Of a stretch of 35,603 bases of DNA, positions 2,576 through 33,913 are shown one piece after another. The notes beneath the pieces are model-generated. The model was not told the DNA's origin. It ran no database searches and was given only the letters and a program-made list of their open reading frames with translations. How positions within the stretch are numbered: the first letter of the stretch is position 1; every line of letters begins with the position of its first letter. The translations under genes were made by a program, and so were the position numbers. Origin of the DNA: a virus; IMG/VR virus record IMGVR_UViG_3300032156_000044, positions 1 to 35,603 of that record; one strand, 5' to 3'.

Positions 2576-2582
2576 GTTATAT
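2576..2582 (+). promoter_or_regulatory. GTTATAT late-promoter-like element (site A)
   Basis: GTTATAT lies 17 bases upstream of the ATG at 2600, in the only sizeable gap (47 bases) between the M23 gene and the portal cluster. The same heptamer, in the direction of transcription, precedes many other transcription units here. No conserved partner is visible 15-25 bases further upstream, so it resembles a single-element promoter. The role is inferred from recurrence. Confidence 0.5.
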
Positions 2583-2990: not shown

Positions 2991-3176
2991 ATGCCAAACG
3001 TACAACCAGGTGAATCAAAAGATGACTTTCTCAAAAGATGCATTCCGATGCTTCGTAATGAAGGTAAACCAGAAGATCAGGCAATAGCTATATGCGAATC
3101 AATGTATGAAGAAAAAAAGATGAGCGCATATGAAAGAACCTGCAAAAAATTAAATATAAAACCATATGTCAGATAA
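2991..3176 (+). CDS. Two-cysteine mini-protein upstream of portal
   Basis: 61 aa. The N-terminal half contains FLKRCIPMLRNEGKPEDQ followed by AIAICESM: two cysteines exactly 17 residues apart, in what looks like a helix-turn-helix hairpin. The same C-x17-C spacing with matching I, G and A positions appears in the protease-scaffold at 24889 (PWDQCISDQLAAGYSQ then ESADKVC). The C-terminal half is basic (YERTCKKLNIKPYVR). The gene overlaps the portal start by 11 bases, so it is probably translationally coupled to portal. Function unknown; a head-assembly accessory is suggested by position and the shared module. Confidence 0.65.
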   Translation: MPNVQPGESKDDFLKRCIPMLRNEGKPEDQAIAICESMYEEKKMSAYERTCKKLNIKPYVR

Positions 3177-4449
3177 TTTAATAAAATTCAAAACTATAGA
3201 AGTTAATAAGGAAAATTTCCTTCAGGTTATTAATCCAGACCAGCAAGTCAATGAATATGACGGTATTCTATATTATAATACCGGAATATATGGCTCTAAA
3301 TATGATAATGCGTTTCCTCAATTTTTACTGGATCTATATATAAATGCAACATCGGTACATTCGAATTTCATTAATCTCAAAGCCACATTAATTCAAGGAA
3401 ATAATTTACAAGCTGAAGATGATACTCAAGCATCGCTGGTAGATCCATTTTTGATGAAATACAATAAAACCGGAGATAATCTCAAAAGCATTTATTCAAA
3501 AGCTTCATCTGATATGGCTTTATTTGACGCAGTTATTTTTCAATGTGTATTCAATCGTGAAGGCGAGGTTGCTGAAATTTATCATATTCCGACACAAAAT
3601 TTCAGACTTGGAAAACTCAATAAATATGGATGGTCTGAATTCGGATATTTGAGTTCTAACTGGGGCATTATAACAAACCAAACCAGATATGTTACAATGC
3701 CGAATAAAGAATATGTAAAAATTCGAATGTGGAGCCCAGGTGACTGGAAAAAATGGCCCGTTCAATTGATGTATTGTAAACCTTATTCATATTCTCCATA
3801 TGCTATTCCAAGTTACAATGCTGGAATTAACTGGATTTTAGTGTCTCATGAGATAAGCGAATTTCACAAAAATAATTTAAAGACAAATTTATTTCTTTCT
3901 GGAATTTTAACTCAATTAAAAGGTTCAATGTCTGATGAGCAACTTGATGAGAATGCCAATGAAATAGAAAAATTTTATGCCGGATCAAAAGGTAGAAAAG
4001 TTTTACTTGCTTATGTTGATGATATGAATAATAAACCAACATTTGATTCTATTACTGGTGAAGAGCAAGATCAGATATTTGATGTATTACAAAAAGAGGC
4101 TTTTCAACAAGTAGTAACCGCTCACAATGGTTATCCGATTTTAGCTGGCGTCGATCCCAGAGGTGCAAATTTAGGCGGAGATTCAAATATGATCAATATT
4201 GCGCTTCAGGCATTTACTCATTTGGTAACCGATAAAAAGAAACAAGTTATTCTTGATAGTATAAATCGCATTTGTGCGATCAATAAGATTCCACCTGTAA
4301 CTGCAATCACAGAACCATTGAAAATCACAATGCCAATTCCTCAGCCAGATGATCTTACAAAAAATGAAAGGAGAGCATATCTTTATGACCTTCCGGAGAT
4401 TGATGAAAGTCAAAATAATGTAACACCAACAAATACAATTCCTAGTTAA
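3166..4449 (+). CDS. Portal protein
   Basis: 427 aa, the usual size for a siphovirus portal. Portals form the dodecameric DNA channel at one capsid vertex and dock terminase, then the connector. Features that fit: an N-terminal wing with SVHSNFINLKATLIQGNNL, a central helical stem region with SHEISEFHKNNLKTNLFLSG, EIEKFYAGSKGRKVLLAYV and DDMNNKPTFDSITG, and the late segment QVVTAHNGYPILAGVDPRGA and GGDSNMINIALQAF, typical of portals from Bacteroidota phages. The C-terminus is a disordered Asn/Thr/Pro tail. It is directly followed, one base after its stop, by a connector-like gene. It is unusually distant from terminase (about 8 kb, with the early genes between). Confidence 0.8.
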   Translation: MSDNLIKFKTIEVNKENFLQVINPDQQVNEYDGILYYNTGIYGSKYDNAFPQFLLDLYINATSVHSNFINLKATLIQGNNLQAEDDTQASLVDPFLMKYNKTGDNLKSIYSKASSDMALFDAVIFQCVFNREGEVAEIYHIPTQNFRLGKLNKYGWSEFGYLSSNWGIITNQTRYVTMPNKEYVKIRMWSPGDWKKWPVQLMYCKPYSYSPYAIPSYNAGINWILVSHEISEFHKNNLKTNLFLSGILTQLKGSMSDEQLDENANEIEKFYAGSKGRKVLLAYVDDMNNKPTFDSITGEEQDQIFDVLQKEAFQQVVTAHNGYPILAGVDPRGANLGGDSNMINIALQAFTHLVTDKKKQVILDSINRICAINKIPPVTAITEPLKITMPIPQPDDLTKNERRAYLYDLPEIDESQNNVTPTNTIPS

Positions 4450-4993: not shown

Positions 4994-5350
4994 TTATTCT
5001 TTTTTTATCATTCCAATACCGTTACAAATAGAACAATCTTTCCAAAACTGACCTGGATGATATTCATTATGAGTAATTCCTTTTCTTCCTTTACAAGTGG
5101 GACAAATTTTATAGTCTTTAAATATTTTAAGAATTTCAAGTAATATTTTTTCATCATTAAGAATATCTTTCTTTTCTGCTTTTATACGACTTTTAAGTTC
5201 TTTAGTATCTTCATAAATGTCAAATATACTCACTTTTCTTTGCCATCCGTTTACTCTGATATTTTCAATAATATGGATAATATCTATACCCAGAGAACCA
5301 CTCTCGTTGAGTTTAATAATTAAATTTTTTAACAATTCTATATCATTCAT
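4994..5350 (-). CDS. DnaJ-type zinc-binding small protein
   Basis: 118 aa. The C-terminus carries two CxxCxG knuckles, CPTCKGRKG (C83, C86) and CSICNGIG (C106, C109), the spacing found in the cysteine-rich region of DnaJ and related chaperones; together they would bind one zinc. The N-terminal 80 residues are helical and unrelated to any family I recognise. Zinc modules of this type usually mediate protein contacts. It is the last gene of the leftward block and overlaps the preceding gene by 8 bases. No terminator is seen before the convergent gene. Confidence 0.65.
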   Translation of the reverse strand: MNDIELLKNLIIKLNESGSLGIDIIHIIENIRVNGWQRKVSIFDIYEDTKELKSRIKAEKKDILNDEKILLEILKIFKDYKICPTCKGRKGITHNEYHPGQFWKDCSICNGIGMIKKE

Positions 5351-5624
5351 TATTAAATTTTTTTTCCATCTGATTTAAGACTTCAAGCAGGTCAACCAGT
5401 AATATGTCACACTCATACATTTCAAGAGTTTCATACATTGATATAGAATTATCAATTATGATTTTCATTAATCTTATTCGTTCCTGTCTTTCGGCTTTTA
5501 CTGTCATTAATCCAATGGCTTCATTGAGAATTTTTTGACATAGTTTATATTTTTCCTCATCATTGCATTTGAGATATCCTTCCATTAATCCCATATGAGG
5601 AATATCCAGAATTCGAGTATTCAT
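5343..5624 (-). CDS. Small helical protein, unknown
   Basis: 93 aa, predicted helical and rich in Met/Leu/Glu (GLMEGYLKCNDEEKYKLC near the start, a regular heptad-like pattern in the C-terminal half, MYECDILLVDLLEVLNQMEK). No family is recognised. It is the first gene after a GTTATAT element at 5637-5643, 12 bases upstream, and overlaps the zinc-protein gene by 8 bases, so the pair forms its own transcription unit at the end of the leftward block. Confidence 0.6.
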   Translation of the reverse strand: MNTRILDIPHMGLMEGYLKCNDEEKYKLCQKILNEAIGLMTVKAERQERIRLMKIIIDNSISMYETLEMYECDILLVDLLEVLNQMEKKFNNE

Positions 5625-5636
5625 CTATCTTTTTAT

Positions 5637-5643
5637 ATATAAC
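5637..5643 (-). promoter_or_regulatory. GTTATAT late-promoter-like element (site H)
   Basis: On the minus strand GTTATAT (plus-strand ATATAAC) lies 12 bases upstream of the ATG at 5624. It would let the last two leftward genes be expressed separately from the rest of the block. The role is inferred from the recurrence of the element before other units. Confidence 0.45.
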
Positions 5644-6659: not shown

Positions 6660-6887
6660 TTATTCGTACCATTCTAAATTTTCAGATTTACAATTTAATT
6701 TATTATCGTCAATATGACGAATTTTAGTATATCCATTTGGATTATCAACAAATCTCCGAGCAATAATTAAATCAACTCGATATATCACGTCCTTTCCGTT
6801 TATATGATGTCTGGCAATTAAATTGCCATCTCTATCAATTTCCTGATTTAAGATTTCCTGAAATCTGCTTGGTCGTTCTTTTTTCAT
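6660..6887 (-). CDS. Degenerate HNH-type (HNH_3-like) small protein
   Basis: 75 aa. The C-terminal half follows the HNH_3 pattern: a strand (VIYRVDLIIARRFVDNPNGY), then RHIDDNKLNCKSENLEWYE, which carries the central His-Ile-Asp, the Asn and the 'ENLEW' end. The first catalytic His normally found in 'x-H-R-L-V-A' is replaced by Y-R-V-D, so nuclease activity is doubtful. It could be a DNA-binding remnant of a homing endonuclease or a reassigned regulator. It is the first gene behind a strong host-type promoter (6899-6929), which argues that it is expressed rather than decaying. Confidence 0.65.
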   Translation of the reverse strand: MKKERPSRFQEILNQEIDRDGNLIARHHINGKDVIYRVDLIIARRFVDNPNGYTKIRHIDDNKLNCKSENLEWYE

Positions 6888-6898
6888 ATGATTTTTTA

Positions 6899-6929
6899 CA
6901 AAGATAAAGCTTATTTTTCAACTGCCAAA
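6899..6929 (-). promoter_or_regulatory. Host-type promoter (TTTG-N19-TATCTTTG)
   Basis: Minus strand: -33 TTTG (6926-6929) and -7 TATCTTTG (6899-6906), separated by 19 bases. This matches the Bacteroidota vegetative consensus TTTG-N19..21-TAnnTTTG exactly. It lies inside the 3' end of the gene at 6911 and 12 bases upstream of the ATG at 6887, giving a very short leader. It should drive the genes from 6887 downward early in infection. Confidence 0.75.
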
Positions 6930-7734: not shown

Positions 7735-7766
7735 CAAATATAAACTTAATTTTCATCCTCTCCAAA
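7735..7766 (-). promoter_or_regulatory. Host-type promoter (TTTG-N20-TATATTTG)
   Basis: Minus strand: -33 TTTG (7763-7766) and -7 TATATTTG (7735-7742), 20 bases apart, an exact match to the Bacteroidota consensus. It sits in the 78-base gap between the endonuclease VII gene and the small-gene operon and should drive 7714 downward. Confidence 0.75.
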
Positions 7767-7792: not shown

Positions 7793-8404
7793 CTACAAAT
7801 TTTTTTCTGCTGGTTGAGTTTTTATTTTTTTTTCATAATATTTTTCCAAATAAGTCAAAGCATTTTTAACTATTTTAGGATCATCTTTCAATAATCCGAT
7901 GGCAGAATTACAATTTCTACAAATCAATCCTCTTGTTTTTCCTGTCTTATGATTATGATCAACAATTAATGTTTTTCCAGTTTCCATTATTGTTATATTA
8001 CATATTGGGCATCCGCTGAATTGTTCGGTTAATTTTTCCTGGTATTGTTCCAAAGTCATATTATAGTTATTTTTTAATTTCCATCGTCTTCTCTTTTCAG
8101 AATTTTTTAAACAATATTGCTTAATATATTCAGGATTTTTTAATCTCCATTGTCTTTGATATTCTTTTTGTTCTTCAGAATTTTTTAAATAGTATTGTTT
8201 ATTATATTCTTTTTTATGTCCAGGATTTTTTAATCTCAATTGTTTATGGCGCTCCAGTACTTTTTCAGAATTTTCTTTATACCATTTTTTCTTTCTGGCT
8301 TTTTCTTTTTCAGAATTTTCAGCCCGATATTGTTTTTGTTGTTCATTACATTTTTTCTTGTTCTTTAAATAATATTGTTCATTATATTCTTTTCTTGTTT
8401 TCAT
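7793..8404 (-). CDS. Recombination endonuclease VII
   Basis: 203 aa. Endonuclease VII (as T4 gp49) resolves branched DNA before or during packaging. The C-terminal domain shows all signature elements: a helix NNYNMTLEQYQEKLTEQFSG, zinc cysteines C132/C135 (GCPIC), the His-Me core LIVDHNHKTGKTRGLIC with D149, H150, N151 and H152, and the second zinc pair C162/C165 (CRNC). The first 110 residues are an unusual basic extension made of imperfect repeats of the type KEYNKQYYLKNSE, probably a long helix or disordered DNA-binding arm; I do not see it in the T4 enzyme. The start overlaps the replication gene stop by 4 bases (ATGA). Confidence 0.85.
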   Translation of the reverse strand: MKTRKEYNEQYYLKNKKKCNEQQKQYRAENSEKEKARKKKWYKENSEKVLERHKQLRLKNPGHKKEYNKQYYLKNSEEQKEYQRQWRLKNPEYIKQYCLKNSEKRRRWKLKNNYNMTLEQYQEKLTEQFSGCPICNITIMETGKTLIVDHNHKTGKTRGLICRNCNSAIGLLKDDPKIVKNALTYLEKYYEKKIKTQPAEKNL

Positions 8405-9135
8405 TTTTTTATTTTTATTTGAGCTATTATTTTTTTATCAAAAGCAACTATCATATCGGTATACCATTCATCGCCTCTATGAATTGATGCTGTTTTATCT
8501 AAAAATTTTCTGCGGCCCATTTTCTTTAATTGATATTTCCATTGAGGTAATTCATCAAAAATAATATTAAGAGTCTTTTCCAGAATATTAATATCTGTAT
8601 CATAAGGAGATGGTTGAGGATGCTTATATGAGATGCTGGTTGAGCTTTCTTTTGTTTTTTCCTCCGACCCAACGAGAGTGGTCGGAGAAGAAAAAACCTC
8701 TGGATGCTCATTCTGGGATGCCGAATTCCTCACCGAAACTCGTTTCGTCGTTTCGGAATTCGGGTCGGATGGTCCACTAGGGTCCTGCTTATCTGGGATG
8801 CTTATTCTAGGACACTTCTTCATAGTATTGCCACCTTCCGTGGATATATTTAAAGTAAAACCAGGTTCCGTGGATATATTTAATTCAATAGATCTTGTTT
8901 TTCTTTTTCCAATAAATTTACTATTAGTTATAATAAATCCATTTAATTTTAAAAATCGTAATCTATTGTCAATACATTTTGAACTCATACAAAGTAATTC
9001 TCCAAACTGAGCATTGGTTAAATAACATTGTCCGCAATTTTTAATAACATTCTCAACTTCGGTTAGTATAATTTTATTAATTATATCCAAACCAGTTGAA
9101 TTGTACTTCGTATTAAAACAAATATATTCTCTCAT
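8401..9135 (-). CDS. Winged-helix replication initiator-like protein
   Basis: 244 aa from the ATG at 9135; an upstream TTG (9201) would extend it through a hairpin and is rejected. Residues 1-75 are a winged helix: FNTKYNSTGLDIINKIILTE, CYLTNAQFGELLCMSSKCI, DNRLRFLKLNGFIIT. This follows the N-terminal layout of phage replisome organiser proteins. Residues 85-180 are a disordered Ser/Pro/Thr linker, and the C-terminus is a small helical domain (LEKTLNIIFDELPQWKYQLK). The arrangement of DNA-binding head, disordered middle and C-terminal domain recalls lambda O, where the origin lies inside the gene; an origin-like repeat cluster is in the linker here. Regulated by a leader with an attenuator-like hairpin. 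Confidence 0.65.
   Translation of the reverse strand: MREYICFNTKYNSTGLDIINKIILTEVENVIKNCGQCYLTNAQFGELLCMSSKCIDNRLRFLKLNGFIITNSKFIGKRKTRSIELNISTEPGFTLNISTEGGNTMKKCPRISIPDKQDPSGPSDPNSETTKRVSVRNSASQNEHPEVFSSPTTLVGSEEKTKESSTSISYKHPQPSPYDTDINILEKTLNIIFDELPQWKYQLKKMGRRKFLDKTASIHRGDEWYTDMIVAFDKKIIAQIKIKK
8618..8883. other. Origin-like repeat and palindrome cluster inside the initiator gene
   Basis: Within the linker-coding part of the initiator gene there are: an 8-bp perfect stem 8662-8669 / 8680-8687 (CTCCGACC/GGTCGGAG); nested stems 8721-8729 / 8755-8763 (CCGAATTCC/GGAATTCGG) and 8733-8739 / 8750-8756 (CCGAAAC/GTTTCGG); two TCTGGGATGC copies (8712-8721, 8792-8801), with further GGATGC at 8618 and 8702; and an 18-bp direct repeat TTCCGTGGATATATTTAA at 8836-8853 and 8866-8883 (30-bp period). 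Such iteron-like repeats plus palindromes suggest an origin of replication as in lambda O. GC content is visibly higher than around it. Confidence 0.45.
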
Positions 9136-9145
9136 AATCTTCAAT

Positions 9146-9189
9146 AAAAAAACCTGGCGATTTGGTGGAGCAGCACCGCCTCGACAGGT
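9146..9189 (-). promoter_or_regulatory. Terminator-like hairpin in leader of initiator gene (attenuator candidate)
   Basis: Minus strand: outer stem ACCTG (9189-9185) with CAGGT (9156-9152), inner pairs GGTG/CACC, then seven T (9152-9146), ending 10 bases before the ATG at 9135. An intrinsic-terminator shape between promoter and start codon suggests transcription attenuation or structure-controlled translation of the replication gene. The inner stem is imperfect. Confidence 0.5.
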
Positions 9190-9233
9190 CTTGTGTAACA
9201 AATTTCTTTATGTCTATCGTTACATTCTGCTCA

Positions 9234-9240
9234 ATATAAC
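9234..9240 (-). promoter_or_regulatory. GTTATAT late-promoter-like element (site J)
   Basis: Minus-strand GTTATAT, 98 bases upstream of the initiator ATG at 9135. Unlike most other copies it is followed by a long leader that contains the terminator-like hairpin. Confidence 0.4.
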
Positions 9241-9327: not shown

Positions 9328-9409
9328 TCAAAAAGAAAAACCCAGATCTAATAAATGAGATTCAGACATGGAAGATCTGGGTAAAACCAATGTGGAGCAC
9401 TAGTTTTTG
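9328..9409 (-). ncRNA. Candidate small leftward RNA ending in an intrinsic terminator
   Basis: In the 341-base gene-free region 9136-9476, a perfect 10-bp stem ACCCAGATCT/AGATCTGGGT (9340-9349 with 9373-9382, loop 23) is followed, in the leftward direction only, by a T-run (9339-9328, one C inside). That is a good intrinsic terminator, yet no leftward gene lies to its right. Upstream of it a weakened host-type promoter (TTTA 9443-9446, N19, TATATTTA 9416-9423) would start an RNA near 9409, of about 70-80 nt. The RNA carries TGCTCCAC, also present in the attenuator hairpin of the next leader. It may be a regulatory RNA; it could instead be only a barrier terminator. Confidence 0.4.
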
Positions 9410-9476
9410 CAATAATAAATATAGACATTTTTTCTTTCATTTTAAACTTTTACTAAAGTTCTGCGTATTTATGTAT

Positions 9477-10097
9477 ATGAAAATTGGAGAACTGAGTTTT
9501 TTTTCGTATCTTTTTGGAATGCCACAAAAGATAGAGATATTCGATGAAGGAAAACAATGTAGCAAATGCGGAGTATTTAGGCAATTGGATGAATATTATA
9601 AAAGAAAACACAAAAACGGAAAAGAATATTATAATGCAACCTGTATTGAATGTTGCAAAAACGCCAGGGCAGAATATCATCTTGGATATAATTGGAAAAA
9701 AATTGTTGAATACCAAAATAAATGGATCATTCATAACAAACCAGGCCATTTTGCCAACCAGAAACAAAAACAGGAATTGATAGAATTCATGACAACAAAA
9801 CTTAAATGGAATTATAATGAAGAAAAAAATCTGTTCTGGAAACCAGGCTTAAAAAACGCAGATGGAACATGGGTGAATATTATTGATATACCAAAACCAA
9901 GAAAGATGAAATGGACGCCGGAAATAAAAGCTCAAATAGTCAAAGAATATAAACAAGGAAATATCACACAATCAGAATTGCGTGAAAAATATGGAATCAA
10001 TCCATTTACATTGAGAAATATACTTAAAGGAATTTTTAATGAAATCAAAGAGAGAAGAATATATGATAAAAAAGGAAATATTATTGGATTCAGATAA
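9477..10097 (+). CDS. Zinc-finger / helix-turn-helix protein
   Basis: 206 aa from the ATG at 9477; a second good start is 9519 (MPQKIEIF, 192 aa). After the second start, a treble-clef-like zinc motif is seen: KQCSKCGVFRQLDEYY (C14, C17 counted from 9519) and TCIECCKNAR (C42, C45), the 'C-x2-C ... FYK ... C-x2-C' pattern common next to HNH or DNA-binding modules. Near the C-terminus, KMKWTPEIKAQIVKEYKQGN plus TQSELREKYGINPFTLRNIL is a transposase/Myb-type helix-turn-helix. No catalytic His-Asn-His is present, so a sequence-specific DNA-binding regulator is likely. First gene of the rightward operon that also carries the sigma factor; overlaps the next gene. Confidence 0.6.
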   Translation: MKIGELSFFSYLFGMPQKIEIFDEGKQCSKCGVFRQLDEYYKRKHKNGKEYYNATCIECCKNARAEYHLGYNWKKIVEYQNKWIIHNKPGHFANQKQKQELIEFMTTKLKWNYNEEKNLFWKPGLKNADGTWVNIIDIPKPRKMKWTPEIKAQIVKEYKQGNITQSELREKYGINPFTLRNILKGIFNEIKERRIYDKKGNIIGFR

Positions 10098-10635
10098 GAG
10101 AAAAGGAAAAAGAAAAAAAGAATATATCTATTCGAAAACCAGAAATGGAAAAGACTTCAACCTTAAACCATATAACAATATGAAAATACGTATTGATATT
10201 CCAAATGTGGATAGATATTATTCAATTCAAAGCACGATGACTTGTTGGATAACCATTCAACCTGATGTACAACAAAAAGAACTGGACAACTATTTATTCT
10301 TGTTGAGAAAAAGAATAAGAAATAAAATAAGAGAATGGCAACAAGAATATTTCAGACAGGAAAGCATTGTTATCATTGATACGGCAGATCTTCCAATAAC
10401 AAGAAGAACTCAATGCCAATATTTGACAATCGAAATAACACATTTCATCATGGATAAAATGATATATAATAAAAATGAAATTCAGAATTTATTATGGCCA
10501 TTTTTAAAAGAAATAATTGATGTACATTTATGCATAGATGATGTGTTTACGATCATTAGAAATAAAAAGATGGAAGCCCGGAAAAATATAATTGCCAGGA
10601 ATAGGAATGAACGAAGAGAAAACGAAAGAATTTGA
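10039..10635 (+). CDS. Hypothetical basic protein
   Basis: 198 aa from 10039 (59-base overlap with the upstream gene); the ATG at 10063 (MIKKEIL) is an alternative with a 35-base overlap. The N-terminus is strongly basic (KRKGKRKKEYIYSKTRNGKD). The middle IRIDIPNVDRYYSIQST, then a long helix LDNYLFLLRKRIRNKIREWQ, then strands QCQYLTIEITHFI suggest an alpha/beta fold. No family is recognised. Its position between a DNA-binding protein and a sigma factor gives no clear role. Confidence 0.55.
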   Translation: MKSKREEYMIKKEILLDSDKRKGKRKKEYIYSKTRNGKDFNLKPYNNMKIRIDIPNVDRYYSIQSTMTCWITIQPDVQQKELDNYLFLLRKRIRNKIREWQQEYFRQESIVIIDTADLPITRRTQCQYLTIEITHFIMDKMIYNKNEIQNLLWPFLKEIIDVHLCIDDVFTIIRNKKMEARKNIIARNRNERRENERI

Positions 10636-11215
10636 CGAATTTTTTAAAGAGAATTATAAATATTTAAATGAATTTAGTAAATCAATCAATCCAAAGAACG
10701 ACTATAAGAGTCTGGTTCACGACGTTTATTTACGTACTCGTACACGAATCAACGAACACGGCTATGATGGACATGACTATCTCAACTTTACCAGAGTGGC
10801 CCTGATGAATTTATTTAAGTCAAATTACCGAAGTGAAAAAAAGAAGACAATGATAAACATCGAAAACGAAGACTACTACCAAACAATAGAACAAATACTA
10901 TTGCAAAAGGAAGAACAGAATGAACAGGAGAATGACAGACAGAATCTCAATGTGTACCTGACAACAATGGTCTATGATTATATCGATCACTATTATAATC
11001 AAAAAGAAGTATTCATATTCCGAACTTATTATCTGTTGAAACATAAACACCTCAATTATAAACAACTGGCGGAAGCCACAGGATATAGCATAACTTCGGT
11101 GAGCAATATCATAAAGAAAATGAAAAAAGATCTAAGACAAAACCTAAAGAGTTATATATTAAATGGACAAAGAATTAATACAACAAGTGGAACGACTGCT
11201 GAAGACAGGAATTAG
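10607..11215 (+). CDS. Phage ECF-like RNA polymerase sigma factor
   Basis: 202 aa from the ATG at 10607; the TTG at 10592 is a weaker start. Residues about 8-80 resemble sigma region 2: KNDYKSLVHDVYLRTRTRIN, DYLNFTRVALMNLFKSNYRS and a basic EKKK (the usual '-10 binding and melting' helix region). A charged Gln/Glu linker (90-112) follows. Residues about 115-180 resemble region 4: EVFIFRTYYLLKHKHLNYKQLAEATGYS with an HTH, SVSNIIKKMKKDLRQNL being the recognition part. This two-domain size and order is that of ECF sigma factors. It would redirect host RNA polymerase, probably to phage late promoters; the GTTATAT elements are the obvious candidates. Confidence 0.7.
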   Translation: MNEEKTKEFDEFFKENYKYLNEFSKSINPKNDYKSLVHDVYLRTRTRINEHGYDGHDYLNFTRVALMNLFKSNYRSEKKKTMINIENEDYYQTIEQILLQKEEQNEQENDRQNLNVYLTTMVYDYIDHYYNQKEVFIFRTYYLLKHKHLNYKQLAEATGYSITSVSNIIKKMKKDLRQNLKSYILNGQRINTTSGTTAEDRN

Positions 11216-11354
11216 CTCAAATTATTCCAACTATATCGCCATGTATGAAAAACTATATGGATCAAAATGGCGCGTATGCGCCTGTAAGAAAATTAAACTA
11301 TACAACGAAATAAATAATTGGTATATTTTAAACAAAAATAAAGATGACAATTGA
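11163..11354 (+). CDS. Small hypothetical protein
   Basis: 63 aa. MDKELIQQVERLLKTGISS is a short amphipathic helix, followed by YIAMYEKLYGSKWRVCACKK and an aromatic C-terminus (NEINNWYIL). It overlaps the sigma gene end by 53 bases and the next gene by 11, in a different frame. No family recognised. Supported mainly by its tight fit in the operon. Confidence 0.5.
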   Translation: MDKELIQQVERLLKTGISSNYSNYIAMYEKLYGSKWRVCACKKIKLYNEINNWYILNKNKDDN

Positions 11355-12731: not shown

Positions 12732-14184
12732 GGAGCCAGAGTCTTTTTTGGACAAAATCTCGCCCGCGCAGAAATTATTTTTAAGGAAACAACTCGAAGC
12801 GGAGCTTTGTAAACGCTCTCTATATGAGTTCTTTAAATATGCGACCAAAATATTAGAGCCATCGACATCCTGGGATTACAACTGGCACTTCGAATATGTC
12901 TGCGACATCCTTCAGGCGGAATTTGAGCGGATCCAGCGTGGGGACCCGAAGGCCCGAGATATAATTCTCTCATTACCATTCCGATGTGGTAAGAGTATAT
13001 TGGTGTCCACTATATTCCCCGCGTGGGTATTGATTAAGGACCCCAGTATGGCTATAATTAATGTATCTGCGACACAGGACCTAGCCACGAAATTCAGTCA
13101 TAAAGCGAAGATATTAATAGACTCAATCTGGTATCAGGAACATTTTGGTGATATATTCAAACTCCGCCAGGATTCCAAGGCGAAGTCCAATTTCCTGACT
13201 GATAAAGGTGGATCGATCACCGCGTTCGGGATCGGATCCACTATAATCGGAAGCGGCGGGCGGATGATTCTCGTTGATGATCCAAATAGTCCAGGCACAA
13301 CAAGTCAATCCGCAATGACCGAAGTTATCAATACTTATCTCGATATTATCTATTCCAGACTTAATAACCCAATTGTAGACCTTCGTTTGGTGATGCAACA
13401 AAGGATCAATGTAAATGATCTTACTGGGTACCTATTAAGAACTCAACCTGACAAATATCAACATATATGCATTCCCGCTATATTGTCCAGCGATCTGGAA
13501 CCCGCGGAATTATCTGAAAAATATATAGATGGCTTATTTTGGAGTAATCGTTTCACACAGAAAGTCTTGGACGATTTTAGCATGACATTGCGTCCGCAGG
13601 CGTTCGCAAGTCAATTGATGATGAGGCCATCAGTTATTGAAGGAGACCTTATCAAAAGAGAGTGGTTCAAGTATATAAAACTCTCGGATGCAATGGCAAT
13701 GAACATTGTTTGGAATCTTGTTATAGATACCGCATACACAAGTCAATCCGCAAATGATCCGAGCGCGTTGATGGTCTGTGGTGTAAAGAATAACCTGTTA
13801 TATATCAGGCAAGTCAGGCAAAGATGGTTACAATTCTACGAACTCCTGGAAGAGATAAAAGAGTTGCAGAAGATCTATATGATAAAGAATATTTTTATAG
13901 AAAGTAAGGCATCTGGTATAAGCATCCAACAAGAACTCAAACGCCAGACTAATTTCAATGTGTTACCATTACAACCAATTGGAGATAAGACTGCAAGAGT
14001 TATATCAATACAACCACAATTACAGAGCGGCAGAGTTGTTCTTGTGCAGGACGATTGGAATGACGGATTCTTGAATGAATGCGCGAGCTTTCCTAATGGT
14101 CGCGATGATATGGTTGATGATCTTTGTTATGCGGTACAGGAATTTGTTAATAAAAGCACAGGAATAATATTTAAAGCGAGATGA
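12712..14184 (+). CDS. Terminase large subunit
   Basis: 490 aa, usual length. TerL is the ATP-driven packaging motor with a headful or site-specific nuclease. ATPase: Walker A LPFRCGKS (88-95; the usual Gly before Cys position is Arg, so it is a variant loop), Walker B MILVDDP (185-191), coupling motif near MQQRINVNDLTG (228-239). Nuclease (RNase H-like): LVIDTAYT (D339), IFIESKASG (E397), GRDDMVDDL (D465-D470). The N-terminal coding part, about 12735-13330, is clearly richer in G/C and in codons such as CGG, GGG and GCG than the rest and than its neighbours. Followed by a 58-base gap. Confidence 0.9.
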   Translation: MQATTIKEPESFLDKISPAQKLFLRKQLEAELCKRSLYEFFKYATKILEPSTSWDYNWHFEYVCDILQAEFERIQRGDPKARDIILSLPFRCGKSILVSTIFPAWVLIKDPSMAIINVSATQDLATKFSHKAKILIDSIWYQEHFGDIFKLRQDSKAKSNFLTDKGGSITAFGIGSTIIGSGGRMILVDDPNSPGTTSQSAMTEVINTYLDIIYSRLNNPIVDLRLVMQQRINVNDLTGYLLRTQPDKYQHICIPAILSSDLEPAELSEKYIDGLFWSNRFTQKVLDDFSMTLRPQAFASQLMMRPSVIEGDLIKREWFKYIKLSDAMAMNIVWNLVIDTAYTSQSANDPSALMVCGVKNNLLYIRQVRQRWLQFYELLEEIKELQKIYMIKNIFIESKASGISIQQELKRQTNFNVLPLQPIGDKTARVISIQPQLQSGRVVLVQDDWNDGFLNECASFPNGRDDMVDDLCYAVQEFVNKSTGIIFKAR

Positions 14185-15405: not shown

Positions 15406-15675
15406 TTAAGCATTTCTTATATCTTCCAGCATTTGCCAGAAGTTCGGATATTTTGTTTCGATATTATTCATATTAAAATAATACATAATTCCCACAAAAT
15501 TCGGATCTGTATCATCAGTAATGCAATCATCGGTAAAGCTTCTCAATGTATTATCAATGAGTCTTGCGTGGGATAATGATAAAGCATACATTGTCACATC
15601 TCCATCAATTGTTACAGTATGTCCTGTGGTGAGATTCATCAATATCCATTCTTGTGTCATTACAATTTTCGTCAT
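15406..15675 (-). CDS. Small hypothetical protein
   Basis: 89 aa. MTKIVMTQEWILMNLTTGHT and VTIDGDVTMYALSLSHARLI suggest a beta hairpin plus helix; then an acidic loop (FTDDCITDDTDPN) and an aromatic helical end (NIETKYPNFWQMLEDI). No family recognised. Transcribed leftward against the structural operon and convergent with the zinc-ribbon gene (21-base gap). It has its own upstream control region with two candidate promoter elements. Confidence 0.55.
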   Translation of the reverse strand: MTKIVMTQEWILMNLTTGHTVTIDGDVTMYALSLSHARLIDNTLRSFTDDCITDDTDPNFVGIMYYFNMNNIETKYPNFWQMLEDIRNA

Positions 15676-15693
15676 ATTATAATTTTTATATAG

Positions 15694-15700
15694 ATATAAC
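15694..15700 (-). promoter_or_regulatory. GTTATAT late-promoter-like element (site I)
   Basis: Minus-strand GTTATAT, 18 bases upstream of the ATG at 15675, downstream of the degenerate host-type promoter at 15729. The gene may therefore be expressed in two phases. Confidence 0.4.
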
Positions 15701-15728: not shown

Positions 15729-15760
15729 TAAAGATATGCATTAATTTTGACACAGCCACA
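15729..15760 (-). promoter_or_regulatory. Degenerate host-type promoter (TGTG-N20-TATCTTTA)
   Basis: This is a diverged copy of the promoter at 16333-16364: about 45 bases align with about seven differences. One change lies in -33 (TGTG for TTTG) and one in -7 (TATCTTTA for TATCTTTG), with the 20-base spacing kept. It probably drives 15675 more weakly. Confidence 0.5.
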
Positions 15761-15765
15761 TATTT

Positions 15766-16089
15766 TCACATATGTTCTGCTTTTAATCTTAATTTAAGTT
15801 CAGAAATTCTTAATTTAGCTCTATTAATTTCATTTTCTCTTGTTTCAGAAGTTATAAAAGTATCATTTTCAATAGTTTTAATACGATCTTCAAAATATAA
15901 TATCCTTTTCTTAATTAATGTTTCAAATTCTGTTTTACTCTCCTGCAAATCTGGTTCTGCTTCAATAGAGGCAAGTATAGCATCAGCAATCTTAGGAAAA
16001 TAATCATTCCAATTATATTGGCCTATTTCCATTTGCTTTGGATTATAGAATTCTTCAAGTATCTTCATGATCTGTTCTCTCTTTGTCAT
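15766..16089 (-). CDS. Helical protein, coiled-coil C-terminus
   Basis: 107 aa. Residues 1-25 (TKREQIMKILEEFYNPKQME) and NWNDYFPKIADAILASIEAE make a small helical domain; residues about 55-103 form a long charged helix (KKRILYFEDRIKTIENDTF, then RENEINRAKLRISELKLRL), likely a coiled coil. No family recognised. Its start overlaps the upstream membrane-protein gene by 4 bases (ATGA), so the two products are probably made together and may work together at the membrane. Confidence 0.6.
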   Translation of the reverse strand: MTKREQIMKILEEFYNPKQMEIGQYNWNDYFPKIADAILASIEAEPDLQESKTEFETLIKKRILYFEDRIKTIENDTFITSETRENEINRAKLRISELKLRLKAEHM

Positions 16090-16247: not shown

Positions 16248-16252
16248 ATTAT

Positions 16253-16300
16253 TTAAGGTTTCTTGGATTTTTTATTCTGTTTATCTTCCATTTGTTTCAT
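16253..16300 (-). CDS. Possible 15-aa basic leader peptide
   Basis: MKQMEDKQNKKSKKP, between the host-type promoter and the membrane-protein gene; its stop is 5 bases before the next ATG. It may be a tiny gene, a leader peptide or chance. Confidence 0.2.
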   Translation of the reverse strand: MKQMEDKQNKKSKKP

Positions 16301-16332
16301 TGATTTTCGGATTCCTCATTTTAAATATGGGA

Positions 16333-16364
16333 CAAAGATATGTATTAATTTTAATCCAGCCAAA
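16333..16364 (-). promoter_or_regulatory. Host-type promoter (TTTG-N20-TATCTTTG)
   Basis: Minus strand: -33 TTTG (16361-16364), 20-base spacer, -7 TATCTTTG (16333-16340), an exact Bacteroidota consensus match. It points leftward into the membrane-protein operon and is back to back with the rightward GTTATAT element at 16411. Confidence 0.75.
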
Positions 16365-16410
16365 TATTTTCACATATATTTTCAAAAAAAGTGCTGGTAG
16401 TTTAATTTTC

Positions 16411-16417
16411 GTTATAT
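16411..16417 (+). promoter_or_regulatory. GTTATAT late-promoter-like element (site B)
   Basis: GTTATAT, 16 bases upstream of the ATG at 16434, the first gene of the neck/tail cluster. The preceding gene-free stretch holds the leftward host-type promoter. Confidence 0.55.
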
Positions 16418-16433
16418 CCATATACTATAAAAT

Positions 16434-16871
16434 ATGACAATTCAAAATCTGGTTGATGTTTGTAAGGACATAACCTTACATAAATTACAATTTAAATCCT
16501 TTTATATTGGTAATACCTGGGATATGTCAGCTGGTAAAGCTGATATCTATCCATGTTTATGGCTTGAAATGCCAGTTTTAGTAGATTATCAGACAATTAA
16601 TAAGATCAATAAGCAATTTACATTTTCTCTTGATCTTATAATATTACCAAAATTGGATGATACCACGGATGAAATTAATATGATTTCCCACATGGAAGAA
16701 TATGCGGATGAATTTCTTTATTATTTAAAACAGAATCCGGATTTTATCTTAATGGATTTTCCGACTGGATTAACGATCAAGTCGATTAATGCCGATAATG
16801 CCTGTGGGATCAGACTTGATATTAAAGTAAAAACTGGTAGAGTATGTCCGCCATTAGATTTAATAACATAA
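16434..16871 (+). CDS. Neck / tail-completion protein (putative)
   Basis: 145 aa. Pattern: VCKDITLHKLQFKSFYIGN, then WDMSAGKADIYPCLWLEMPV, a strand FTFSLDLIILPKLDDTTDE, a helix EEYADEFLYYLKQ, and FPTGLTIKSINADNACGIR. This alpha/beta layout, with conserved 'SFyiGntWDm' and 'INADNACGIRLDI', is one I associate with a single-copy gene in Bacteroidota phages next to an HK97 gp10-like gene, as here. Small proteins in this place form the tail terminator or neck ring. Homology not tested. Confidence 0.6.
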   Translation: MTIQNLVDVCKDITLHKLQFKSFYIGNTWDMSAGKADIYPCLWLEMPVLVDYQTINKINKQFTFSLDLIILPKLDDTTDEINMISHMEEYADEFLYYLKQNPDFILMDFPTGLTIKSINADNACGIRLDIKVKTGRVCPPLDLIT

Positions 16872-17347: not shown

Positions 17348-19675
17348 ATGGCACAAGATTATATTATTTGTTCGGGAGAAACACCAGTCACATACAGTTG
17401 CGATATAGCACTGGAGCCTGGATGGAGTTGCGGATTTGTTTGTATTATAATAACTAATTTAAATACAACTTATCATTATGTACCTTACATTTTGACCGTA
17501 GATGCTCCAGTACATAGTCCTCTTACTGTTACTTATCGATTAACATATACGGTAAATGTGTATATGGATTATGAATTAGTAGTTTCTAGTGTACGACATG
17601 AAAATCGTACACATTATTTTACTTATGGTCAAGATACTTACACAATAGAATATCCAAGTGTTGAAGCTTTTCCTTGTTATAAGAAAGTTGATCATGGCGG
17701 TGGAGACTATAACGAATCGACACTTGATCTAGTTGAAGTCATGCCGCAGGTTCCAATTCCAAATTGTGTTCCACCTCCTCCAGAATGTTCTTTATCAATC
17801 GATGCTACATCATCAACTGATCCAAGTCAGCGTGGAGCTTCTGATGGTACCATATCAGCTAATATCAATACCGATGGTGCTCCTGATTGGTATATCAATT
17901 CTGTAATCGATAGTGGTAATTTATCAGGTCATACATTTACAGGACTTACTACTGGCACATATTATATCAAAGCGGTAAGTGGAAGTTGCTGGGATGAGGA
18001 AATCGTTATTGTTTATGAAGGTGAATTCAGATCTGGTGACTTCATTGCCATCAGTCCGACATTAAGCGGTAATACGGTAGCGGTTGAGAATCCTATTTTA
18101 TTAACTCTTTCCACGGCTTTGAATAGTACATCTCCCGATTATTCTATCAATACATTCACGGTAACTGGAACGATTGCCAATGTTGTTGTTAATTTTGCAT
18201 TAACTTTTCCTTATTCTTATGAAGCAGAATTCCGTTCCAAAGGATATCCTGACAGAAGTAACTATTTTTTAGAGTCTATTCTCAAAGATCAGGTTGGAAC
18301 CACAGTTGGAAATAATAATGCTGAAGAAATAGCAACAAGTCTTGGAGAATCATTTCAAAAAGATCCTATACTTTCAAGAATTTATTATATTTCAACATCT
18401 GGATCTGTTGTAACAATGATAGCAAAAGAATTCGGGGCTGTTTATAATTTAAGTGCTACAAATGTAATGATAACTGGATCAAATCTGATTCTTGCTAATG
18501 TGACGCCAGGAATGGCCGAATATGATGGTCAATTAACCGCAGATTATTCACTTTATGCTGAATTATTTGTAAATCAAGTAGCTGAATATGGTGAAGCTGT
18601 TCTTGCAAGTGATTATAAACGAGTGATTGAATTGGAATTACCATTTTCGCAGGACAATATCCATAAATTTGATGTGGCTCCGACGCTTAAGGATTTCGTT
18701 TTATCATCAAAAATAGGTTTCACGATTACAGGTGTAACATATCTTAGTGATATGATAGCTAGTTATTATATGCGTTATGGTGAAAAATATCCATTAGTAA
18801 CCAATTCAAACACCAAAAAGAAACGATATAAAGGTGAAACTGAGAAAGGATATTGTATAAATTCAGCTTTGAATTTTGAAGATGCTAATTCAATGAACGC
18901 ATATTTTGCTACTTCTGGATGTTTGTTTCTTAATACGGCTCCAGATACCAAATATTCGCAAAGAGATGCCAAGGAATTCTATAGTTTTGTTATTCCAAAA
19001 GATTATACTTATCCTCTGGCGGTTTATGGAAACATTTATAATTATGATGGTTCTTCTACTCTTAATGTCAAATTCTTTGATATAACGACTGCTGGGTCGC
19101 CTTACAATTTTGGTGGTGTTGCAGTACTTAGCCTTGGTTATAATGATCTGGGCCTATCCGCATATGAAGCCTCGAGCAAAATTCGTAAAGTTGAATTCCA
19201 AGTCAAGCAAAATGATGGAGGATGGATCAGTTTTACCGAGACAAAGTCTTATTTATTGGAAATAGACGAGCAACCTTCAAATTACAATGTTGCATTTTTA
19301 AATAAATTAGGAGCATATGAAACATATTCATTTACTGGAGAACTTCAGGAAGTTCAGGAGATTACTAGAGATCTATATCAGCGTCCGTATTCAATTAATT
19401 CCAGCGGAGCTGCTACAGTTGGATTTCAATATAATTCAACTCTTAATACAGAATTCACAAAGACTTTTATAGTTAATACTGGAATAATCAGCGCAGATGT
19501 TTATTATTATCTTATGGGATTACTTCAAAGTAATAAGATCTATCATTACGATGATGTCCATGAAACATATTTGAATGTTGTGTCTCAAACAGCGATGAAA
19601 AGCACGAATGCAAATGAATATTTCGTACAGGTTACTTTCAAGGAAACAATTCAAGAAAATGCCGTGTCAATGTAA
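17348..19675 (+). CDS. Large tail structural protein with SprB-like domain
   Basis: 775 aa. N-terminal beta-rich domain (1-140, several cysteines), a short Pro-rich hinge (PNCVPPPPEC, ends near 147), and a domain at about 148-222 with RGASDGTISANINTDGAPDW and TGLTTGTYYIKAVSGSCWDE, which follows the SprB-repeat plan ('GasdGtI ... tGLtaGtY'). Most of the rest (225-775) is beta-rich and ends in a domain with TKTFIVNTGIISADVYYYLM and HYDDVHETYLNVVSQT. SprB repeats are known from gliding adhesins of Bacteroidota; here the domain may help host binding. Position between neck and hub genes and size suggest a tail-tip or baseplate component; no sheath motif seen. Confidence 0.6.
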   Translation: MAQDYIICSGETPVTYSCDIALEPGWSCGFVCIIITNLNTTYHYVPYILTVDAPVHSPLTVTYRLTYTVNVYMDYELVVSSVRHENRTHYFTYGQDTYTIEYPSVEAFPCYKKVDHGGGDYNESTLDLVEVMPQVPIPNCVPPPPECSLSIDATSSTDPSQRGASDGTISANINTDGAPDWYINSVIDSGNLSGHTFTGLTTGTYYIKAVSGSCWDEEIVIVYEGEFRSGDFIAISPTLSGNTVAVENPILLTLSTALNSTSPDYSINTFTVTGTIANVVVNFALTFPYSYEAEFRSKGYPDRSNYFLESILKDQVGTTVGNNNAEEIATSLGESFQKDPILSRIYYISTSGSVVTMIAKEFGAVYNLSATNVMITGSNLILANVTPGMAEYDGQLTADYSLYAELFVNQVAEYGEAVLASDYKRVIELELPFSQDNIHKFDVAPTLKDFVLSSKIGFTITGVTYLSDMIASYYMRYGEKYPLVTNSNTKKKRYKGETEKGYCINSALNFEDANSMNAYFATSGCLFLNTAPDTKYSQRDAKEFYSFVIPKDYTYPLAVYGNIYNYDGSSTLNVKFFDITTAGSPYNFGGVAVLSLGYNDLGLSAYEASSKIRKVEFQVKQNDGGWISFTETKSYLLEIDEQPSNYNVAFLNKLGAYETYSFTGELQEVQEITRDLYQRPYSINSSGAATVGFQYNSTLNTEFTKTFIVNTGIISADVYYYLMGLLQSNKIYHYDDVHETYLNVVSQTAMKSTNANEYFVQVTFKETIQENAVSM

Positions 19676-19709: not shown

Positions 19710-19716
19710 GTTATAT
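19710..19716 (+). promoter_or_regulatory. GTTATAT late-promoter-like element (site G) with a 104-base leader
   Basis: GTTATAT in the 145-base gap before 19821. Unlike other rightward copies it lies 104 bases from the ATG. The leader contains a weak hairpin (CTATAT/ATATAG around 19770-19795) and no U-run or gene. Confidence 0.4.
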
Positions 19717-19820: not shown

Positions 19821-21869
19821 ATGAGTAATATTTCGAATTTACAAATTAAAACTGAGTTGGGTGATCTAATTTATCGCCAAGTTTCGGATTTAAACCTCTC
19901 CTTTTCTCGGATTGTTGATGACTTTACGGATATTTCCAACAAATATGGAGATTTTTCTTATGAATTTAATTTACCAATTATCAAAGAAAACTCCAAAATA
20001 TTTGGGGCCCCAGAAACTATCGGCAGCAAGAATTTTTTCATAAAAAATAGAAATATTCGATGTCAAGTTTATAATAATAATCAATTGATATTAGATGGAT
20101 TAATAAATCTGGAAGGATTAACAAAAGATACATATAAATGTAAATTCTTTTCAAAATTCAAGGAGCTTGTTGATACTTTAAATTCTAAAACCACTACTGG
20201 TGAAAATAAAACATTGAGAGATCTCAATTTTCCTATCATTCATAACTGGAAATATGAAACATCAATCATTGGTCATATTTTAGCCGACTATAAAAATAGC
20301 GACGAAACATTCTATCAATACCCATTGTCCTTTTATTCAACCTTTTATACTCAATATAGCATTTATAGTGGCTTGACTGATTATCAAGGACATACATTTG
20401 ACGCAGATAGGCCCAGAGAAAATTATTATTATTTACTCAATACAGCTGGCGGGCAGAATAATCATATCTATTTTCATCAACTTCCTCCTGCTGTTTATAT
20501 TGTTTCAATAATGGAACAGATTCTAGAGGATGCAGGATGGTCTCTTGGAGGACAATTCTTCCTTGATCCTAATATTAAAAAGATAATATTATTATATTCT
20601 GGTGAAGATGACATTTATGACCAAGCTATTACAGGCAATACAGTATTTCAAGGATCTTCTCCAGTTAATTTGAATATATCTAAATTTCTTCCTGATATGG
20701 GTCAGGCTGATTTTATCAAAGGTATAATGAATTATTTTAATTTATATTTCAGGATCGATACTAATAATAAGATAATTGAATTCGAAACTTATGACACATA
20801 TTTCAGGAATACCGATGATATTGATCCATATGACATAACATCAAGAATTGATGAGAGCTCATCAAATAATAGTACGACATATTTTCTTAATAATGATCCA
20901 TCAATTGTTTTTGATAAAGCTGAGAATAGGAATATTTTTGGTGATAATAGAGTGATAACAGGAGCAACAGATAATGCTGTTACAACGCCATGGGTGGGCG
21001 TATCCAATACCAGATTCAATCAGACATTCAACAGGATCGGATATACTGAACAAACTAATGTGAATTTGAATAATTATGTTGCTACGGTTACAAAAATCGA
21101 TATACCATTTTCTGAGCCAACCATTAAAAGACATTTTATATGGAATGATTTTGATATTAATGAAGTTGATCAATCCGCTGGCTGTCATATATTGTATTTG
21201 CCATTATTATCCAAACAAACACCAGCGGATAACAACTCTATGAAATTTAATAGGAATAATGCCGACAACTATCTATTTAATAATGAATCATCAATAAAAT
21301 TTCAAGGAAGTGGCTCATTGATGTATTATTATGGAGTATCAACATCGGATTTTGAGAATAAAGCTGGTCTCGGAGCTATTCCAAATTATCTTTATATTAA
21401 TATCTTTGATTTTACAGGATCAACGATTTATAATCTTCCAATTCCTATTGTCAGTCCTTTCCAACTTTCGAATTACAGAACAGATGTTGAAGCCTGGTTA
21501 AATGGTATTAATACAACTAATCTGGAGGATCGTAGGACATCTGTTGCTTCTTACCTACAATCTATATGGCAGATGTTAGGTAGTTCAACTGGCGTTACGT
21601 CAGGTATGACTACGGATTATTCTCTGGTATTTGATGACGGCGGATATTTCCATGAAACTCTTTGGACAAAATTCCATAAATACAAATGGGATAGATATAA
21701 GAATTCGGAATTATTCACTGGAGACATAATAATGAATTCCTATGATTGGGATCAGATGCAGATAAATCGTCCACTCAGATATAAAGGAGAGTTATATTCA
21801 TTGGTGAGTATTAATGGATTCAATCCGATAACTCAACGAGGACAAATAAGCATGATAAAAAAATATTAA
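19821..21869 (+). CDS. Tail hub / tip structural protein (putative)
   Basis: 682 aa. The N-terminus has LSFSRIVDDFTDISNKYGDF and SYEFNLPIIKENSKIFGAP, a block typical of a large single-copy tail protein found beside the tape measure in Bacteroidota phages. The middle has GIMNYFNLYFRIDTNNKIIE and FETYDTYF, reminiscent of hub proteins with an 'N-x-F-N-L' followed by 'n-x-I-x-F-E-x-Y'; the C-terminal part ends with RPLRYKGELYSLVSINGFNP. A role as the tail hub through which the tape measure passes is inferred from this and from the next gene, 1 base after its stop. No peptidoglycan hydrolase motif seen. Confidence 0.6.
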   Translation: MSNISNLQIKTELGDLIYRQVSDLNLSFSRIVDDFTDISNKYGDFSYEFNLPIIKENSKIFGAPETIGSKNFFIKNRNIRCQVYNNNQLILDGLINLEGLTKDTYKCKFFSKFKELVDTLNSKTTTGENKTLRDLNFPIIHNWKYETSIIGHILADYKNSDETFYQYPLSFYSTFYTQYSIYSGLTDYQGHTFDADRPRENYYYLLNTAGGQNNHIYFHQLPPAVYIVSIMEQILEDAGWSLGGQFFLDPNIKKIILLYSGEDDIYDQAITGNTVFQGSSPVNLNISKFLPDMGQADFIKGIMNYFNLYFRIDTNNKIIEFETYDTYFRNTDDIDPYDITSRIDESSSNNSTTYFLNNDPSIVFDKAENRNIFGDNRVITGATDNAVTTPWVGVSNTRFNQTFNRIGYTEQTNVNLNNYVATVTKIDIPFSEPTIKRHFIWNDFDINEVDQSAGCHILYLPLLSKQTPADNNSMKFNRNNADNYLFNNESSIKFQGSGSLMYYYGVSTSDFENKAGLGAIPNYLYINIFDFTGSTIYNLPIPIVSPFQLSNYRTDVEAWLNGINTTNLEDRRTSVASYLQSIWQMLGSSTGVTSGMTTDYSLVFDDGGYFHETLWTKFHKYKWDRYKNSELFTGDIIMNSYDWDQMQINRPLRYKGELYSLVSINGFNPITQRGQISMIKKY

Positions 21870-24849: not shown

Positions 24850-24867
24850 AAATAAAATAATAAAATA

Positions 24868-24874
24868 GTTATAT
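24868..24874 (+). promoter_or_regulatory. GTTATAT late-promoter-like element (site C)
   Basis: GTTATAT, 14 bases upstream of the ATG at 24889, in the 39-base gap after the tape measure gene. It would start a separate capsid transcription unit. Confidence 0.55.
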
Positions 24875-24888
24875 TAACATATCAATAT

Positions 24889-26376: not shown

Positions 26377-26398
26377 ATTCGTTATATAATTAACGAAT
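26377..26398 (+). promoter_or_regulatory. GTTATAT element (site D) within a perfect dyad
   Basis: GTTATAT at 26381-26387 lies in an 8+8 bp inverted repeat, ATTCGTTA (26377-26384) and TAACGAAT (26391-26398) around TATAAT. It is 35 bases from the capsid ATG. The dyad could be an operator or a short AU hairpin at the 5' end of the message; only this copy of the heptamer has it. Confidence 0.5.
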
Positions 26399-27376: not shown

Positions 27377-27898
27377 ATGTCATGCGAATTATTAAATGGA
27401 ATTGTAGGCGTTTGTGAATATTCTTCTAGTGGATGTGAAGCCCTATGGCTAGCTAATAAATCAGACATAACAGGTTCAACTGTTTATGATGCTTGTGGTC
27501 AAGTCACTGGAATAACATGGGCTGGTGGAAGTCCAACCGTTTATGAGATTGAAGGATCATTGGACAGTATTACGTTTAGTGACGATTTGGTCGTTAATGG
27601 CTCAAGGAGAAACTGGTTACAGACTATAAACTTCGGATTGGGTTCAATTGATTGCACCATTCTTAAAACACTCGAAGATATTGGTCTATCTAATCTTGTT
27701 GCTTTTGTTAAAACAGCTGATGGTTCTTATCGAGTTTTCGGATTGAAAGGTTCGGGACTTCGTGCAACTGTTATGACATCGGCTTCAGGAACTGCAGCTG
27801 GAAATGACGGTAATGTTACCGTTACAATAGCTGGAAGTTCTCTTGGAAAAGCCTCTTTTGTCGAAAGCTCTCTTGCAGAAACATTCTTAGTTATCTAG
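27377..27898 (+). CDS. Major tail (tube) protein, putative
   Basis: 173 aa, beta-rich. SITFSDDLVVNGSRRNWLQT, then LKTLEDIGLSNLVAFVKTAD, GSYRVFGLKGSGLRATVMTS and SASGTAAGNDGNVTVTIAGS fit the tail-tube fold: strand-helix-strand, then 'sG.a.gD.ng.tvt..G'. The two next genes begin with diverged copies of the same domain (compare [20 protein letters not shown] in 29505). Cotranscribed with the capsid gene and followed by an excellent terminator, as expected for the second most abundant virion protein. Cysteines cluster in the first 40 residues. Confidence 0.65.
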   Translation: MSCELLNGIVGVCEYSSSGCEALWLANKSDITGSTVYDACGQVTGITWAGGSPTVYEIEGSLDSITFSDDLVVNGSRRNWLQTINFGLGSIDCTILKTLEDIGLSNLVAFVKTADGSYRVFGLKGSGLRATVMTSASGTAAGNDGNVTVTIAGSSLGKASFVESSLAETFLVI

Positions 27899-27928: not shown

Positions 27929-27966
27929 AAAAGCGCAGAGATTGGCTCTGCGCTTTTTGTTTTTTC
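27929..27966 (+). terminator. Strong intrinsic terminator after capsid and tail-tube genes
   Basis: Perfect 12-bp stem AAAAGCGCAGAG (27929-27940) / CTCTGCGCTTTT (27946-27957), loop ATTGG, followed by a T-rich run to 27965. It is the clearest rightward intrinsic terminator in the window and separates the highly expressed capsid unit from the adhesin genes. Confidence 0.9.
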
Positions 27967-27973
27967 GTTATAT
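27967..27973 (+). promoter_or_regulatory. GTTATAT late-promoter-like element (site E)
   Basis: GTTATAT starts immediately after the terminator T-run and lies 16 bases before the ATG at 27990. A terminator directly abutting the element strongly suggests that transcription restarts here. Confidence 0.65.
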
Positions 27974-33906: not shown

Positions 33907-33913
33907 GTTATAT
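33907..33913 (+). promoter_or_regulatory. GTTATAT late-promoter-like element (site F)
   Basis: GTTATAT, 20 bases upstream of the ATG at 33934, in the 46-base gap after the giant adhesin gene. A decoy ATG at 33927 opens only a short frame. Confidence 0.55.

Follow-up and report, generated by a model that had tools for sequence, protein, structure and literature searches.

The uncultured phage genome analyzed here (the whole 35,603-nt IMG/VR record IMGVR_UViG_3300032156_000044, hereafter the window) encodes an ECF-like sigma factor, and the heptamer GTTATAT recurs ahead of its genes, always directed toward the gene that follows. We consider it likely that this sigma directs the host core RNA polymerase to single-element GTTATAT promoters and in this way switches on middle and late transcription. 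Motif and sigma, found as the same pair in a distant relative, G001, probably form a real gene-expression switch. The pairing was proposed in a first-pass annotation made from the sequence, and after shuffling, heptamer ranking, comparison with G001, control genomes and fold prediction it is the reading that best accounts for the data. That the sigma reads GTTATAT we infer from the co-occurrence of the two in two genomes. GTTATAT is accordingly called a putative promoter, and the early and late classes suggested below follow from gene content.

A two-domain phage sigma factor

In agreement with the ECF (group IV) plan, the sigma has about 200 aa and comprises sigma2 and sigma4 only, with neither sigma1.1 nor sigma3. 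It matches the sigma70-ECF profile TIGR02937 with E=9.3e-11 and 41.6 bits, 1.3 bits under the curated cut-off of 42.9 bits, which the G001 protein exceeds (E=2.1e-14, 53.5 bits); the window protein also matches the sigma family phrog_1740 (E=1.6e-4). Its AF2 model is of moderate confidence (pLDDT 63), and the Foldseek matches of the model are ECF sigmas. With VIA-align, the model fits sigma2 of SigR with Z 8.9 (rmsd 2.1 Å over 74 residues) and sigma4 domains with Z 8.2-8.8, the mutual placement of the two domains being unreliable (rmsd 15-18 over both). Because sequence and fold agree, the predicted two-domain ECF-like sigma is well supported, and the first-pass assignment of regions 2 and 4 was borne out by the predicted structure. 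Region 4 is the most conserved part of the protein between the window and G001. A small ORF whose start lies within the 3' end of the sigma gene encodes a product with 29% identity (E=1e-6) to the C-terminal extension that is fused to the sigma in G001 (L025:10136-10945); this could reflect either a gene fusion or a split, with GTTATAT just ahead of the ATG of the ORF.

One relative and further genome features

A sigma-based scan of viral contigs returned a single relative, G001 (IMGVR_UViG_3300050030_000049 in IMG/VR, 36,217 bp). Protein identities to the window are 39% for the sigma, 52% for TerL, 55% for the portal and 60% for the putative capsid, and the order of these genes is alike in both genomes. 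Pattern scans of viral contigs for further sigma homologues gave G001 only, and none was found in the genome contigs searched or, by tblastn, in annotated phages. A portal scan for more relatives yielded G001 and one distant contig only. L149, which came from a capsid scan, was rejected as a further independent relative because over 11.6 kb it is 99.8% identical to G001 and hence a strain of it; the comparison of motif and sigma comprises two independent genomes. Near G001 28230, the strain identity (99.8%) between L149 and L026 breaks off sharply just past the start of gene 28225, and the promoter motif ahead of this gene is retained in L149 despite the break. Possibly, a tail gene is swapped behind a constant promoter.

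Several features of the window lie apart from the motif. A long gene with a collagen-like SGTSG repeat (34,311-35,603 and 1-572) extends past both ends of the record. By eye, the record start resembles a stretch near 35,347, and no exact end repeat was found; the record is probably a circular genome cut or collapsed within the repeat. Two endonuclease VII-like proteins are encoded at 7793-8404 and 9390-10,097 (PF02945, E=2.9e-22; phrog_1035, E=2.9e-7) and may act in homing or recombination. The leftward small ORF 6660-6887 resembles three separate leftward ORFs of G001 (L025:4356-4883, G001 18645-19184 and G001 24387-24881), two of them set within the structural region, and perhaps these ORFs are a mobile family of small genes.

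A directional heptamer in the gene gaps

In the 1340 bp of gaps between curated genes (77% A+T), GTTATAT occurs ten times in sense orientation relative to the downstream gene and never in antisense (Table 1), whereas 2000 shuffles of the gaps yielded 0.41 copies on average and at most 4. The ten gap copies listed in the first-pass annotation were recovered at their positions and strands, each pointing toward the gene that it precedes, and their enrichment over a shuffled background is real. De novo ranking placed GTTATAT first among gap 7-mers, with 10 copies versus 0.44 expected when an independent mechanical gene caller defined the gaps. A genome-wide Markov ranking of k-mers did not single out the heptamer, because its signal sits in the gaps. 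Sense gaps contain only six one-mismatch variants, and the heptamer is therefore nearly all-or-none. From motif end to start codon we counted 12-20 nt at seven sites and 35 nt at one; the first-pass range of 12-35 bases hence describes most sites, with 19710 farther away (about 100 nt) and 9234 at 32 or 98 nt by choice of start codon.

Table 1. Sigma gene, GTTATAT sites, host-type promoters and neighboring features of the window.
Feature	Position	Strand	Context
GTTATAT	2576..2582	+	precedes 2600-2989, 2991-3176 and portal 3166-4449; in G001, GTGTTATATTAG 15 nt before portal gene
GTTATAT	5637..5643	-	12 nt ahead of leftward gene 5343-5624
Host-type promoter TTTG-N19-TATCTTTG	6899..6929	-	gap, ahead of leftward genes
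Host-type promoter TTTG-N20-TATATTTG	7735..7766	-	gap, ahead of leftward genes
GTTATAT	9234..9240	-	ahead of leftward gene 8401-9201, start codon uncertain
Possible imperfect host-type promoter ATTG-N20-TATCTTTT	9483..9514	+	about 1.1 kb upstream of sigma gene; by eye, weak
Phage ECF-like sigma gene	10607..11215	+	202 aa; sigma2 at about residues 1-75, sigma4 at about 113-186 (fold match at about 110-190)
Candidate internal GTTATAT	11151..11157	+	3' end of sigma gene, 5 nt ahead of ATG 11163; in G001, GTGTTATATTAGTAC at 10705
Small ORF	11163..11354	+	overlaps sigma gene end in another frame; homologous to C-terminal extension of G001 sigma
Candidate internal GTTATAT	13999..14005	+	near terL 3' end; in G001, GTGTTATATTAGTAC at matching place, 13728
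GTTATAT	15694..15700	-	18 nt ahead of leftward gene 15406-15675
Host-type promoter TTTG-N20-TATCTTTG	16333..16364	-	back to back with GTTATAT 16411 (+), gap 16248-16433
GTTATAT	16411..16417	+	16 nt ahead of 16434-16871, first gene of rightward structural region; G001 15339, same gene
GTTATAT	19710..19716	+	104 nt ahead of 19821-21869; G001 without copy at corresponding place
GTTATAT	24868..24874	+	14 nt ahead of 24889-26370 (prohead-protease-like, PF14550); G001 24891
GTTATAT	26381..26387	+	35 nt ahead of 26423-27337 (virion structural protein, probably major capsid); G001 26561
Intrinsic terminator	27929..27957	+	12-bp stem, T tail; between 27377-27898 and 27967 promoter
GTTATAT	27967..27973	+	16 nt ahead of 27990-29492, directly past terminator; G001 28202
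GTTATAT	33907..33913	+	20 nt ahead of 33934-34308; G001 32862

The strong terminator that had been noted next to the 27967 copy is real, and its position just ahead of this copy fits the start of a new transcription unit. The label of a late promoter fits seven of the ten sites; the other three precede leftward small genes and not structural ones. In the whole window, GTTATAT has 24 copies versus 9.4 expected, a number reached in 0 of 100 shuffles. Copies in coding DNA had been put down to chance, which does not hold for those at 11151 and 13999. Both have intragenic counterparts in G001 that carry the full 12-bp consensus, at 10707 (end of sigma) and 13730 (end of terL). The upstream flanks of the 11151/10707 pair are 60% alike, and coding constraint may contribute to its conservation.

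Conservation in G001 and controls

The eight copies of GTGTTATATTAG[TA]A[AC] in G001 lie without exception on its + strand, and the window heptamer is contained within this sequence. The first-pass annotation had called for a comparison of heptamer and sigma in related phages, and in G001 both are present. Five gene starts have GTTATAT in both genomes (window/G001: 16411/15339, 24868/24891, 26381/26561, 27967/28202 and 33907/32862). Their upstream flanks are 17-33% identical, which is near chance, while the heptamer is kept; the motif hence is an island of conservation. The bases adjoining the heptamer differ by phage, with T[AC]GTTATAT in the window versus GTGTTATATTAG in G001.

As controls, we used three annotated flavobacterial phages whose TerL proteins are related and five contigs, checked for the sigma by tblastn and their own annotation (phages) or by family search (contigs). 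These checks revealed no sigma of this kind in any of them, and the gaps of each contain GTTATAT once or not at all, a count that we take as supporting evidence only, since the controls are distant, several are incomplete and some contigs are near-copies of one another. A DNA scan of viral contigs with GTGTTATATTAGTAA matched mostly contigs with a single copy, besides G001's own pieces. The few contigs with repeated GTGTTATATTAGTAA have TTGACA upstream and resemble ordinary sigma70 promoters.

Upstream sequences and the -35 question

Promoters of ECF (group IV) sigmas are bipartite and include a -35, which region 4 usually reads. Ahead of the GTTATAT sites no strict -35 was found, as the first-pass annotation had noted, and no column stands out in the window. 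Among the G001 sites, only position -33 relative to the heptamer shows a weak preference, for A. A weak A-rich bias 16-20 nt upstream (AAAAT at 18-20 nt) appeared only with both phages pooled (18 sites; mononucleotide shuffles, several tests) and might represent a loose A-rich contact. Sites of the window and of G001 alike present a single conserved putative promoter element with no clear -35, as in phiEco32 gp36-type promoters.

Host-type promoters

In primary-sigma promoters of Bacteroidota, which probably is the host phylum of the window phage, TTTG is the upstream partner of TAnnTTTG. The latter is read by the primary sigma of this phylum (PMC9723704). TTTG-N19/20-TAnnTTTG occurs in three perfect copies in window gaps, each ahead of leftward genes. 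In G001, one host-type promoter (7383) lies before a leftward gene and another with one mismatch (9083) before the rightward sigma operon, whose sigma gene follows about 1 kb further downstream. The gap enrichment has p ~0.001 in the window and 0.05 in G001, with overlapping -33 matches counted apart. The leftward genes behind most of these promoters in both genomes are probably early. For the sigma operon of the window, no perfect host-type promoter was found. Of the 18 GTTATAT sites of window and G001, a single one has TAnnTTTG nearby, 47 nt upstream. A scan for canonical sigma70 promoters gave no useful excess (123 vs 102). By eye, the stretches 15,733-15,778 and 16,336-16,380 are alike, sharing GATATG[CT]ATTAATTTT...CAGCCA.ATATTTTCACATAT; as the latter stretch, on the minus strand, coincides with the host-type promoter 16333-16364, the former may be a decayed copy.

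Discussion

In the mechanism that we propose, the host primary sigma would read TTTG/TAnnTTTG promoters and express early genes, the phage sigma among them. The phage sigma would then bind the host core RNA polymerase and take it to GTTATAT, a single -10-like element without a conserved -35. These putative promoters would mostly serve portal, protease, capsid, head-tail, tail and terL-adjacent genes. By analogy with phiEco32, transcription may start about 6-8 bases past GTTATAT, which would leave very short leaders.

Other readings of the heptamer have to be weighed against this. GTTATAT could be an extended -10 (TGnTATAAT-like) used by a vegetative or alternative host sigma without any phage sigma; the G001 TGTTATATT differs from an extended -10 by one base, and TTGACA-N17-TGTTATATT was seen in unrelated contigs. 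However, in the window the base in front of the G is never T, the final position of the -10 can be A, T or C, and the sites are without a clear -35. Moreover, the likely host phylum uses TAnnTTTG (PMC9723704), which is present elsewhere in both phages, and we regard an extended -10 as unlikely. Slightly less probable still is an operator of another phage regulator, activator or repressor, next to a real promoter too degenerate to see. Regulator sites are likewise short and intergenic, but GTTATAT is not palindromic, is strictly directional with one copy per unit, and keeps an almost fixed distance of 12-20 nt at most starts.

This same spacing ahead of most start codons would suit an element of the mRNA leader acting on translation or mRNA processing. 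Against it, GTTATAT is missing before most operon-internal genes, other sites are 35 and about 100 nt away, and the internal terL copy of G001 is separated by about 150 nt from the gene that follows, so that a leader element appears improbable. Chance in gaps of 77% A+T can be practically dismissed, as the observed gap count was reached in 0 of 2000 shuffles and the element is conserved in G001. We also rejected the idea that GTTATAT is read by a single-subunit phage RNA polymerase, since none of the large proteins matched an RNA polymerase.

The closest precedent for a phage sigma reading GTTATAT is gp36 of phiEco32, which reads a single 9-bp element, tAATGTAtA, with starts 6-8 bp downstream, and is without region 4 (PMC8948821). 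As we infer for the window sigma, gp36 is an ECF-type phage sigma that redirects the host core enzyme (PMC8948821, PMC4331800). On our reading, both phages would share one -10-like element ahead of middle and late genes, no -35, and early genes on host-sigma promoters. In contrast to gp36, with no recognizable region 4, the window sigma has this region, and both the element (GTTATAT versus tAATGTAtA) and the host, probably Bacteroidota, are different. A tblastn comparison of the window sigma with the phage collection gave no gp36 match, which argues against a close relationship. The first-pass annotation had drawn the parallel to T4 gp55. Late promoters of T4 indeed have a single AT-rich -10 element, an 8-bp TATA box without a -35, read by a phage specificity subunit on host core (PMC2988020), and to this extent the parallel stands, with phiEco32 gp36 being closer (PMC8948821). 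However, the likeness of gp55 to sigma factors is confined to domain 2, whereas the window sigma also has sigma4. Moreover, gp55 acts together with gp33 and with gp45, the sliding clamp (PMC2988020), and its element is different from GTTATAT.

Phage 7-11 also encodes a sigma for late genes, SaPh711_gp47, a distant gp36 homolog (PMC8948821). For this phage, a single motif of a similar kind was first predicted in silico (PMC4331800); once transcripts had been mapped, a bipartite promoter different from GTTATAT, GTAAtg-16-aCTA, took its place (PMC8948821). This precedent is the main warning against over-trusting GTTATAT; here, the motif is statistically strong and conserved in two genomes. With cellular Bacteroidota ECF sigmas (TIGR02985), the phage sigmas share the two-domain plan, and the G001 protein is a weak match (E=3e-9), but far under the subfamily cut-off, and the gene lies in a phage operon shared with terL. 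A Flavobacterium ECF-type motif has a CGT box, not GTTATAT (PMC9723704). The pairing had been thought undescribed. The idea as such has its precedent in phiEco32 gp36, while the open literature that we searched yielded no account of a sigma with promoters of this type in Bacteroidota phages.

We may further speculate, with somewhat less than even confidence, that a phage sigma with an intact region 4 reads one element of 7-12 bp and that the role of region 4 is limited to gripping the polymerase flap or to sequence-independent contact with DNA, in a phylum whose primary sigma reads unusual promoters. The flanks of the element and the sigmas would then have diverged together.

If the proposed switch is true, it would extend the phiEco32-type phage-sigma switch to phages of Bacteroidota, a major phylum for which transcription programs have been described in few phages. 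It would also pose the question of how a two-domain sigma manages without a -35, and provide Bacteroidota, where standard promoters fail, with a compact and orthogonal pair of sigma and promoter. Furthermore, late transcription units of uncultured relatives could be predicted from GTTATAT.
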